Positions 49,964 through 53,156 of a stretch of 64,000 nt of DNA are shown one piece after another. The stretch's first letter is position 1, and each line of letters starts with the position of its first letter. The notes beneath the pieces are model-generated. The model was not told the DNA's origin. It saw nothing but the letters and a program-made list of their open reading frames with translations, and did not search any database. A program made the position numbers and the translations under genes. Source of the stretch: [Clostridium] saccharolyticum WM1 (GTDB taxonomy: Bacteria; Bacillota; Clostridia; Lachnospirales; Lachnospiraceae); assembly GCF_000144625.1 (NCBI RefSeq), contig NC_014376.1:1984001-2048000 (forward strand), in the 5' to 3' direction.

Positions 49964-50007
49964 GGTATCCCTTTATGCCATTAAAACAAGGGCAGGAAAG
50001 AGGAAAT
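49964..50007 (+). repeat. Ribosome-binding-site repeat before polA (one copy)
   Basis: GGTATCCCTTTATGCC, then AAACAAGGGCAGGAAAGAGGAA, ending in AGAGGAAAT just before the polA ATG. Matches the repeat family at 36.8, 53.2 and 56.6 kb. An ATACCC/GGTAT stem stands at its left edge. Confidence 0.7.
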
Positions 50008-52560
50008 ATGGACAGAAAAAGAATTATATTAATTGATGGGAGCAGCATGGCAGAGAATGCTTTTTATGGACTTCCTTCCAATGGAGTGAAAGGGATTCAA
50101 AGCATGGTCATGAAGCTGCTGGATGCAAAAGAAGCGGACTATTTTGCTGCGGCCTTTGATTCGGAAAGGGAAAACGGCCGGAAGGAATTTCTAAAAAGTG
50201 CAGGACTTTATGAAGAGCTTTTAAAGCAGGAAGAGCTGTTAAAGGAGACTTTCCATTCTATGGGGATCTCTGTTCTTGATAAGAAGGGTTATGCATCTTC
50301 TGATATACTGGCCTCATTGGCAAAAAGGTGTCAGGAAGAGGAAGGGGAAATCATCCTCCTGTCCGGAGACCGGAAGCTTTTGCAGGCTGTGGAAGAACAT
50401 GTGACCCTTAAATTACCGGCTGTTGGAGAAGATGGTCTGGAATTTAAGTCTTATTCCATAGAGGGCATCAGGGAAGAATATGGCCTTGAGCCAGGGGACT
50501 TATTAGGAGTTTTTGGCTTGACCGAAGCAAAAGGAATCGGAGAAAAAACGGCCTGTGATTTGATAAAAAAATATCATACTATTGAAAATATTTATCAGCA
50601 GATGGAAAAAATAGAGTCTCACAGGATCAGGGAGACGCTTACAAGGAATAAGGAAAAGGTCAGGAAAAAGGAAGCGCTTTCCGCTCTTCGCAGGGACTGT
50701 GATATCCGTCTGGATTATACAAAAACCCTGGAACAGGCAGAGATCCAGAAGATTATGGACATGGATTTTGTCCCTGCTGTTTTCCCCGGAGAAGAAGAGG
50801 AAGCTTCCCTGGAATCGGGCTTTCATGTAGTTACGGACCTTTTGGAAGCGGAGGCCATATTTCTAAAATGCAAAGAAGGCTGTTGTCTGGGGATCCAGTT
50901 GGTGATAGAAGACAAGGCCCTGTCAGCCATGTCCCTTTGCCTCAGTGAAACGGAATCCTACTGTTTCATACCCCAGGGGACTCTTAAGCCGGAATATCTG
51001 GCAGAAAAAGGGTCGGAGATATGTAAAAGGGCAGGAAAGGCGGCAGTTCTTCAGTTAAAAAGTCAGCTTCCCCTTTTAAAAATCACGGAGGAAAGTCCTG
51101 TATTTGATGCCAGCATAGCCGGATATCTTTTGAATCCTTTAAAGGATTCCTATGAATATAATGATCTGGCAGCGGATTACCTGGACCTTTCTATACCCTC
51201 CAGAACCGAACTAATAGGAAAAAGCTCGATGAAACGTGCCATGGAGGAAAATAAGGAAAAGGCCGTTTCCTGTATCTGCTATATGTCTTATGTGGCATTC
51301 AGAAGCCGGGATTTACTTCAAGAGGCACTGGAAAAGGCGGGCATGGATAAGCTGTTTTATGAAATCGAAATGCCTTTGACCTACAGTCTGTATCGAATGG
51401 AAGATGCCGGAATCCGGGTGGAAAGAAAGCTGCTGAAGGAATACGGGGACCGTTTAAAAGTACGGATTGCGGAGCTGGAGCAGAAGATATATGAAGAAAC
51501 AGGAGAAACCTTTAACATTAATTCCCCCAAACAGCTGGGAGAGGTGCTCTTTGACCATATGAAAATCCCGGGAGGGAAAAAGACAAAAACCGGTTATTCT
51601 ACGGCTGCTGATGTATTGGAAAAGCTTGCCTCTGACTGGCCTGCGGTCAGACTGATTCTGGATTACAGGCAGCTGACCAAATTAAATTCCACTTATGCGG
51701 ATGGGCTGGCAGCCTATATCGGGCCTGATGAACGGATTCACGGGACCTTTAACCAGACGATTACTGCCACCGGAAGGATCAGCAGCACAGAACCAAACCT
51801 TCAGAACATTCCGGTGCGTATGGAACTGGGAAGAGAGATCAGAAAGGTTTTTGTGCCCCAGGAGGGCTGTGTGTTCATAGATGCGGATTATTCCCAGATT
51901 GAGCTGAGGGTCCTGGCTCATATGTCAGGAGACCAGCGTCTGATCGGGGCTTATAAGCAGGCAGAGGACATCCATGCCATCACGGCCTCCCAGGTATTCC
52001 ATGTCCCGCTTCATGAGGTGACGCCGCTTCAGAGGAGGAATGCAAAGGCTGTAAACTTCGGTATTGTATATGGAATCAGCTCCTTTGGACTGAGTGAGGG
52101 ATTAAGCATTACCAGAAAAGAGGCCTCGGAATATATTGAAAAATACTTTGAGACCTATCCGGGAGTGAAGACATTCTTAGACGGCCTTGTGGCCGAAGCG
52201 AAGGAACTGGGCTATGCGGCCAGCATGTTCGGAAGACGCCGCCCTGTTCCAGAACTGAAATCTTCCAACTTTATGCAGCGTTCCTTTGGAGAGCGGGTCG
52301 CCATGAATTCTCCCATTCAGGGTACTGCGGCGGATATTATTAAGATAGCCATGATACGGGTAGATGGTGCCTTAAGAAAACAGGGATTAAGATCCCGGAT
52401 CGTCCTTCAGGTTCATGATGAACTTCTCATTGAAGCATACAGGGAAGAGGCAGACCAGGTAAAGGAACTTCTGGCGGAAGAAATGAAGCATGCAGCAGAT
52501 CTTGCAGTTTCTCTTGAAGTAGAGGCCAATGCAGGGGATTCCTGGTTTGATGCCAAATAA
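50008..52560 (+). CDS. polA: DNA polymerase I with degenerate nuclease domains
   Basis: 850 residues. The polymerase domain is intact: FNINSPKQLGEVLF, GRISSTEPNLQNIP, motif A DADYSQIELRVLAH, motif B RRNAKAVNFGIVYG, motif C QVHDELL. The 5'-nuclease domain keeps the fold (RIILIDGSSMAENAFYGLP, helix-hairpin-helix AKGIGEKTACDLIKKY) but not its metal ligands: YEADD of relatives is YASSD (95-99), GDKD is GDRK (120-123), and GDSSDNIPG is replaced by GVFGLTEA. The 3'-5' exonuclease region also lacks DxE, as in Bacillus. ATG 50008 follows AGAGGAAAT; 49975 lies in the repeat. coaE follows after 14 bp, the usual polA locus. Confidence 0.93.
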   Translation: MDRKRIILIDGSSMAENAFYGLPSNGVKGIQSMVMKLLDAKEADYFAAAFDSERENGRKEFLKSAGLYEELLKQEELLKETFHSMGISVLDKKGYASSDILASLAKRCQEEEGEIILLSGDRKLLQAVEEHVTLKLPAVGEDGLEFKSYSIEGIREEYGLEPGDLLGVFGLTEAKGIGEKTACDLIKKYHTIENIYQQMEKIESHRIRETLTRNKEKVRKKEALSALRRDCDIRLDYTKTLEQAEIQKIMDMDFVPAVFPGEEEEASLESGFHVVTDLLEAEAIFLKCKEGCCLGIQLVIEDKALSAMSLCLSETESYCFIPQGTLKPEYLAEKGSEICKRAGKAAVLQLKSQLPLLKITEESPVFDASIAGYLLNPLKDSYEYNDLAADYLDLSIPSRTELIGKSSMKRAMEENKEKAVSCICYMSYVAFRSRDLLQEALEKAGMDKLFYEIEMPLTYSLYRMEDAGIRVERKLLKEYGDRLKVRIAELEQKIYEETGETFNINSPKQLGEVLFDHMKIPGGKKTKTGYSTAADVLEKLASDWPAVRLILDYRQLTKLNSTYADGLAAYIGPDERIHGTFNQTITATGRISSTEPNLQNIPVRMELGREIRKVFVPQEGCVFIDADYSQIELRVLAHMSGDQRLIGAYKQAEDIHAITASQVFHVPLHEVTPLQRRNAKAVNFGIVYGISSFGLSEGLSITRKEASEYIEKYFETYPGVKTFLDGLVAEAKELGYAASMFGRRRPVPELKSSNFMQRSFGERVAMNSPIQGTAADIIKIAMIRVDGALRKQGLRSRIVLQVHDELLIEAYREEADQVKELLAEEMKHAADLAVSLEVEANAGDSWFDAK

Positions 52561-52574
52561 AGGAGTGAGGCAGA

Positions 52575-53156
52575 ATGAGAGTGATTGGACTGACCGGAGG
52601 GGTTGGAGCTGGAAAAAGCATGGTTCTTTCTATTTTAAAGAAAGAGTACGGTGCGGAAGTGATCAAAGCGGATGAGGTGGCGCATCAGTTGATGGAACCG
52701 GGAAAGGAAGGTTATCTTGCGTTGACAAAAGCCCTGGGGAAGGGCTTCCTGAATCCGGACGGGACCATTGACCGCAAGGCTTTGGCTGCATGTATTTTTC
52801 AGGATGACAGAGTAAGGGAAACCGTAGATGACATCATCCACCCGATGGTATGGAAAACCATAAGGCATAAAATTTCTGCTTCCCAAGCAGGGCTTATTGT
52901 GGTAGAATTTGCAATTATGAATGAAAAAACGGATGAAGCCTGGGAGGAAATGTGGTATGTCCGCACCTCAAAGGAGAACCGGATCCGCCGTCTGGCAGAA
53001 AACCGGGGCTATACGAGAGAGCATTCAGAACGTATCATAGCCAGCCAGGCCTCTGAATCAGAATTTTTAAGCCGTTGCACACGGGTTATCGAAAATGATG
53101 GTTCTATGGAGGAAGTAAGGGGACAACTGGCTGAAATATTAAAAAACAGGGCATAG
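52575..53156 (+). CDS. coaE: Dephospho-CoA kinase
   Basis: 193 residues. Last step of CoA synthesis: phosphorylates the 3' hydroxyl of dephospho-CoA. P-loop GLTGGVGAGKSMVL, KADEVAHQLMEPGKEGY, DRKALAACIF, IIHPMVW and the R-rich lid region RIRRLAENRGYTREHSERI are present. GGAGTGAGG precedes the ATG. The polA-coaE neighbourhood is conserved in Firmicutes, usually with mutM between them; mutM is absent here. Confidence 0.95.
   Translation: MRVIGLTGGVGAGKSMVLSILKKEYGAEVIKADEVAHQLMEPGKEGYLALTKALGKGFLNPDGTIDRKALAACIFQDDRVRETVDDIIHPMVWKTIRHKISASQAGLIVVEFAIMNEKTDEAWEEMWYVRTSKENRIRRLAENRGYTREHSERIIASQASESEFLSRCTRVIENDGSMEEVRGQLAEILKNRA

Follow-up and report, generated by a model that had tools for sequence, protein, structure and literature searches.

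How does a bacterium remove its RNA primers when the DNA polymerase I (Pol I) at its normal locus appears to have lost the residues that do the cutting? In the textbook account of bacterial Okazaki fragment maturation, a single Pol I chain both synthesises DNA and removes the primers. We address this question for polA of [Clostridium] saccharolyticum WM1, whose genome is a single contig of 4.66 Mb and whose PolA has its nearest named relatives in Lacrimispora. The gene (50008..52560, plus strand, as are all window features given below) lies in a window of 64,000 nucleotides, positions 1,984,001 to 2,048,000 of NC_014376.1, and encodes an 850-residue Pol I with an apparently vestigial 5'-nuclease domain. 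Judged from sequence, it is highly probable that this domain is a catalytically dead remnant and that a pre-existing, long, stand-alone flap endonuclease (FEN) carries the 5'-nuclease work. The window PolA would then be polymerase-only, as an earlier reading of the bare DNA (the original prediction) had proposed.

The loss is clearest at the active site. In an alignment of nuclease regions from 73 PolAs and 51 stand-alone FENs, we scored nine canonical ligand columns, numbered by what we take to be E. coli-type residue numbers, counting D or E as a kept ligand. The window PolA keeps four of the nine metal-binding acids (D13, D63, D116 and D138) and has lost E113, D115, D140, D185 and D188. YASSD (50290..50304, residues 95-99 of the 850-residue protein) replaces YEADD, with two of three acids lost, and GDRK (50365..50376, residues 120-123) replaces GDRD, with the second acid changed to lysine. 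GVFGLTEA (50506..50529, residues 167-174) occupies the GDxSDNIPGV stretch of canonical relatives; both acids are gone and the loop is short by eight columns. The arch is replaced and shortened. The original prediction had named these three replacements, the first two with these residue numbers, and had reported the TFRH/EYK arch residues as gone, and both observations stand; its statement that the acidic cluster is changed throughout is slightly too strong, given the four ligands that are kept. The lysine of GDRK presumably occupies the same position as D155 of T5 FEN. According to the title of PDB entry 5hp4, T5 FEN D155K gives a 'pseudo-enzyme-product complex'.

This decay is not peculiar to one strain. 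Across 25 genomes of the genus, all 21 Lacrimispora PolAs read have a damaged site, with between two and five of the nine acids left; the row of one genome (G001) is cut at its 5' end. In the other 20, D13 and D116 are acidic in 100% of sequences, D138 in 85%, D63 in 35%, E113 in 15%, D140 and D185 in 10% each, and D115 and D188 in 0%. As the decay is common to all 21 genus PolAs read and to 13 other database proteins, we reject a sequencing or frameshift artefact. The carboxylate set of a two-metal FEN is therefore incomplete in the window PolA and in its 21 genus counterparts alike. Nor is one site complete in the manner of a one-metal, ExoIX-type enzyme, with E113 and D115 lost besides D140, D185 and D188 in the 20 sequences, on what we presume to be the assignment of ligands to the two metal sites. 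The original prediction had allowed that other acids might sit at these sites; the sequence alignment of the 20 genus PolAs shows no acid at or beside a lost ligand position that is conserved across the genus and also occurs in the window PolA. We rejected as compensating residues the non-canonical acids that are invariant in the genus, at 114, 141 and 152 (and at 111, where relatives also have an acid); all are distant from the motifs along the sequence.

Most of the metal ligands are thus gone from a domain whose fold is predicted to be retained, as originally suggested. PF02739 still recognises the resolvase-like 5'-3' exonuclease core (50023..50484; residues 17-170 of an 861-residue version of the protein that starts at the in-frame upstream ATG at 49975 and spans 49975-52560), at 79.5 bits compared with about 200 bits in canonical relatives. 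The helix-three-turn-helix (H3TH), the DNA-binding part of the old nuclease, is likewise retained (50527..50724; PF01367, 52.8 bits, residues 185-250 of the 861-residue protein) and carries GIGEKTA (50533-50553). An AlphaFold (AF2) model of the domain, built with 39 sequences, has a pLDDT of 87 and a pTM of 0.84 and combines the resolvase-like core with the H3TH, as a FEN fold should. The solved structures closest to it in fold are ExoIX, a plastid exonuclease, the FENs of M. smegmatis and T5, and the nuclease domains of Pol I from Taq and M. smegmatis. We rejected the idea that the H3TH is a specially conserved remnant, as its mean identity within the genus is 0.54, against 0.51-0.58 in parts of the core.

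A candidate replacement is encoded in the same genome. The only other PF02739 match is a stand-alone long FEN of 362 residues, about 368 kb further along the chromosome than polA, with both Pfam domains, no polymerase and all nine acids. Genes for one RNase HI (a 163-residue frame) and one RNase HII/HIII-family protein (a 213-residue frame) are also present, so that the original proposal of another flap nuclease or RNase H finds candidates of both kinds. We infer that the FEN removes primers with RNase H cooperating. In this scheme Pol I would only fill and displace, the FEN would cut RNA-containing 5' flaps displaced by Pol I or by a replicative polymerase, and RNase H would trim the RNA-DNA hybrid, aiding the FEN. 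Once the FEN did this work in trans, the nuclease domain of Pol I would have been free to lose its metal sites in Lacrimispora and to be mostly deleted in Butyrivibrio. We propose this because of work in B. subtilis, where most 5'-nuclease work falls to a discrete FEN (FenA/YpcP/ExoR), the Klenow part of Pol I is enough, and cells are viable only with at least one of polA and fenA (PMC10191290). The FEN occurs in 24 of the 25 genus genomes, the lone exception being 67% complete, and in the one 9-kb locus viewed, that of Lacrimispora amygdalina, its neighbours look by eye like ordinary chromosomal ORFs. Two Lacrimispora genomes have a further PF02739 match: an extra FEN copy with eight of nine acids in L029 (1492-2532), and a 286-residue frame (125.3 bits) in L030.

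Rates of evolution indicate that catalysis is no longer selected for. The ratio of nonsynonymous divergence (dN) in the nuclease domain to that in the polymerase domain is 4.4-8.9 in nine Lacrimispora pairs, against 1.0-1.6 in eight intact pairs. Additionally, relative to the degenerate proofreading region of the same protein, dN is 1.2-1.9 times as high in the remnant of the Lacrimispora pairs and only 0.3-0.4 times as high in the nuclease of the intact pairs. The pairs were chosen by hand, and the intact ones are more divergent, with synonymous divergence (dS) mostly saturated; only ratios within a protein are therefore compared.

The partner gene tracks the decay across the family. We surveyed 250 genomes, one per genus and at least 90% complete, and searched 28 of them again for PF02739 and PF00476. 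The PolA nuclease is decayed in four genera (G000, G136, G167 and G197), all four with the long FEN. A further 243 were counted as intact, and four of these (G049, G060, G117 and G234) have the long FEN. Without correction for kinship, the co-occurrence of FEN and decay gives a Fisher p of 4.6e-7. The 243 comprise 227 assigned by score, 14 with a long-type domain, and G249 and G104; residue-level reading covered 17 of the 227 and 13 of the 14, all with nine of nine acids. Among those counted intact, PolA is split in G104 and in G084, the latter long-type by score, and one ligand reads as X in G249. G052, G191 and G065, all without a PF00476 match, stand outside the count. G052 and G191 (96% and 100% complete) have no PF02739 match either, which may reflect missing contigs or real loss.

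Searching 392 genomes of the order with the FEN alignment as query (E up to 1e-30) gave 23 stand-alone FENs and two long-type PolAs at 403.8 bits or above, and the next match fell to 157.8. Sixteen genomes listed with the FEN belong to one genus, g174, whose PolA relatives are named Butyrivibrio. Thirteen of these have a PolA of 704-774 residues that lacks most of the nuclease domain, and the other three (G528, G543 and G568) have a degenerate domain, that of G568 being split over two contigs and read in pieces. One g174 genome, G502, has no long FEN and keeps an intact PolA nuclease (198.7 bits, nine of nine acids); the listing omits some genomes without a FEN match, and more members like G502 may exist. 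The PolA of G495 shows six of nine acids in an alignment that is not dependable there, and it has no PF02739 match. Ligand-column counts are also not dependable for the Butyrivibrio rows, which lack most of the domain. The FEN of G559 has all motifs, and that of G428 has nine of nine acids in its own frame, its match spanning a TAA. In two genomes of family f11 with long open frames (G436:C23 and G489:C28), the PolA matches contain one in-frame TAG, from recoding or error.

The original prediction had viewed the split of duties as confined to one lineage; it is instead recurrent, with Lacrimispora and Butyrivibrio lying apart on a tree of 65 polymerase domains, from which eight of the 73 rows, all of Lacrimispora, had been left out beforehand. 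The decayed state requires six changes on this tree, five of them forced by starred branches. We can reject both a single clade holding every decayed PolA (p 1.2e-9) and a clade of Lacrimispora with Butyrivibrio (p 1.3e-42). Outside Lacrimispora branch G060 and G049, then G136, then a group of G234, G151, G118 and G121. As these nearest outgroups include genera with both FEN and intact PolA (G060, G049 and G234), the simplest reading is that the FEN arrived before the PolA nuclease decayed.

Several observations weigh against this account, in its mechanism or in its history. Within the active site, D13 and D116 are invariant and a third position is 85% acidic in the 20 Lacrimispora PolAs, so that the remnant may still bind some metal; 18 of the 20 also have an acid at position 93, three residues ahead of the lost E113, where the window PolA has lysine. 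The dN/dS of the remnant is 0.14-0.26 (seven of nine Lacrimispora pairs computable), well under 1, with 0.02-0.06 for the polymerase domain in the same number of pairs and 0.03-0.06 for the FEN (eight of nine). The remnant is thus under relaxed constraint and evolves fast but not neutrally, and folding, frame or DNA binding must still matter. The class of 227 of the 243 intact genera is a call by score. In ten named Bacilli the PolA nuclease scores at least 187 bits, and eight of them have a second FEN, also by score; a second FEN therefore permits decay without forcing it. Of the historical points, a single decay for Lacrimispora and G136 (p 0.146) and a single decay inside g174 (p 0.05) are both compatible with the tree, and G167 and G495 sit on long branches. 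Thus, decay arose separately at least twice, in Lacrimispora and in Butyrivibrio, which we regard as a firm minimum, and up to six times. G151, G118 and G121, grouped with G234, have one PF02739 match each and hence no FEN, which implies that it was lost or moved in that group. In an independent-pairs test on five pairs on starred branches, the link between FEN and decay was not significant (median p 0.125), with averages of 3.6 pairs going the same way, 0.0 the opposite way and 1.4 showing no difference.

The invariant acids invite the question of whether a rearranged one-metal site still gives the domain some weak cutting activity, in the way that the ExoIX class of FENs keeps one of two sites. 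We consider this improbable, as E113 and D115 are lost, with no acid at these positions in the window PolA, D63 is acidic in 35% of the 20 sequences, and Butyrivibrio, with the same type of partner gene, has dispensed with most of the domain. Equally, RNase H might be the main remover of primers, with the stand-alone FEN serving another pathway, and both RNase H genes are indeed in the genome. However, RNase HI is found in nine and RNase HII in all of 14 control genomes, so that neither offers a reason for decay, whereas the long FEN tracks it; we regard this alternative as very unlikely.

A dead domain may have gained a new job, and this idea is compatible with a catalytically dead remnant partnered by a FEN. 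The H3TH would bind 5' flaps or nicks and pass them to the FEN, or shield them, as a selected DNA-binding module. The retained H3TH, the low dN/dS, the confidently predicted fold and the persistence of the domain in all 21 Lacrimispora PolAs read are in its favour. However, within the genus the H3TH is no better conserved than the core, the constraint may merely reflect folding and upkeep of the frame, and most of the domain is gone in the 13 FEN-bearing Butyrivibrio-like genomes noted above. We therefore hold a pseudonuclease of this kind to be possible but doubtful. The remnant's rapid but non-neutral evolution suggests that in Lacrimispora it has a role in structure or DNA binding, one dispensed with in Butyrivibrio.

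Long-type nucleases also occur inside Pol I. In 13 of the 250 genera, plus G573 (L050, L051, L169, L190-L200), a Pol I of about 920-1010 residues has an N-terminal nuclease of the long-FEN type with nine of nine acids; G084 is a 14th of the 250, by score only. In a tree of nuclease domains, the long FENs share one clade (99/99) with the N-terminal domains of the 13 and G573, 14 long-type PolAs in all, apart from the canonical PolA nucleases of Lachnospiraceae (100/96). FEN and PolA domain lie side by side within it, the FEN branch being weak (88/75), a pattern compatible with either direction of transfer; the Bacilli rows in this tree are PolAs. A single clade of the polymerase domains of long-type PolAs is rejected only at p 0.012, with long branches. 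These data suggest that the nuclease module of Pol I has been exchanged in cis too, the long branches making this less sure. We tentatively suggest, as a joint reading that falls somewhat short of an even chance, that the Pol I 5'-nuclease of Lachnospirales is an exchangeable module whose work the long FEN type has repeatedly taken over, either in cis or in trans, with death or deletion of the old domain two to six times in the latter case, and that the dead domain of Lacrimispora is a non-cutting, DNA-binding pseudonuclease. A 640-residue protein of an Erysipelotrichaceae metagenome-assembled genome (L077, 878-2797) has an N-terminus that groups, on a long branch, with the long-type FEN domains; that genome has no PF00476 match.

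The rest of the window locus is that of an ordinary Pol I. The protein matches the full-length model NF004397 at 826.6 bits (cut-off 720), and its polymerase domain is intact (51427..52548; PF00476, 546.6 bits, over the curated cut-off). The proofreading region (51091..51249) is degenerate, as first supposed, with PF22619 at 12.9 bits, below the cut-off of 27. The dephospho-CoA kinase gene coaE is next downstream (52575..53156; PF01121, 142.2 bits). With a family-A domain, a full-length Pol I match and this coaE-adjacent locus, the protein qualifies as DNA polymerase I, and in a whole-genome profile search its gene is the sole intact family-A polymerase gene found. We therefore agree with the original prediction that it is not an extra copy, the remaining PF00476 matches being a broken fragment with an in-frame stop. 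That fragment (G000:C1:1854394-1855463, L004), which lies outside the window, is probably of phage type and has no PF02739 match.

The division of labour between Pol I and a discrete FEN is known; what appears to be new, from the sequences compared here, is the recurrent retirement of the Pol I nuclease in place in Lachnospiraceae. Among the matches listed in the open-licence literature, with supplements outside it, we found no earlier report of this decay, and a prior mention is possible; nor did the matches listed confirm a split Pol I in Aquifex. These genera offer a natural test, as the FEN should be essential in them. They also carry a warning for annotation, as such a Pol I passes the full-length model though its nuclease is probably dead.

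Among known systems, E. coli ExoIX (Xni) is a stand-alone protein with one site missing, whereas in the window PolA the nuclease domain is joined to a polymerase and acids are missing from what we take to be both sites. The likeness is that this one-metal FEN class has the FEN fold but lacks some of the carboxylates (PMC3783174). Passages of a 2026 survey of bacterial polymerases describe 5'-3' exonucleases as nearly universal, with solo nucleases where Pol I is missing (PMC12926913). There too a stand-alone protein supplies the 5' nuclease; in those cases, however, Pol I is absent or of another group (PolA1-like), whereas here an orthologous Pol I decays in place at its normal locus. The same passages of the main text name no decayed Pol I 5' domain, and a figure legend that mentions 'active' 5'-3' domains in PolA1 indicates that the authors may have judged activity (PMC12926913). 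A close parallel is B. subtilis, which also pairs Pol I with a discrete FEN and so has two FEN-family proteins (PMC10191290). Its Pol I keeps a feeble 5' nuclease, whereas the genera described here have lost most of the ligands or the greater part of the domain and have a longer type of FEN. The B. subtilis authors suggest that Pol I could diverge given an active discrete FEN (PMC10191290). In these genera evolution seems to have followed that suggestion through, and more than once, while some of their relatives keep both.
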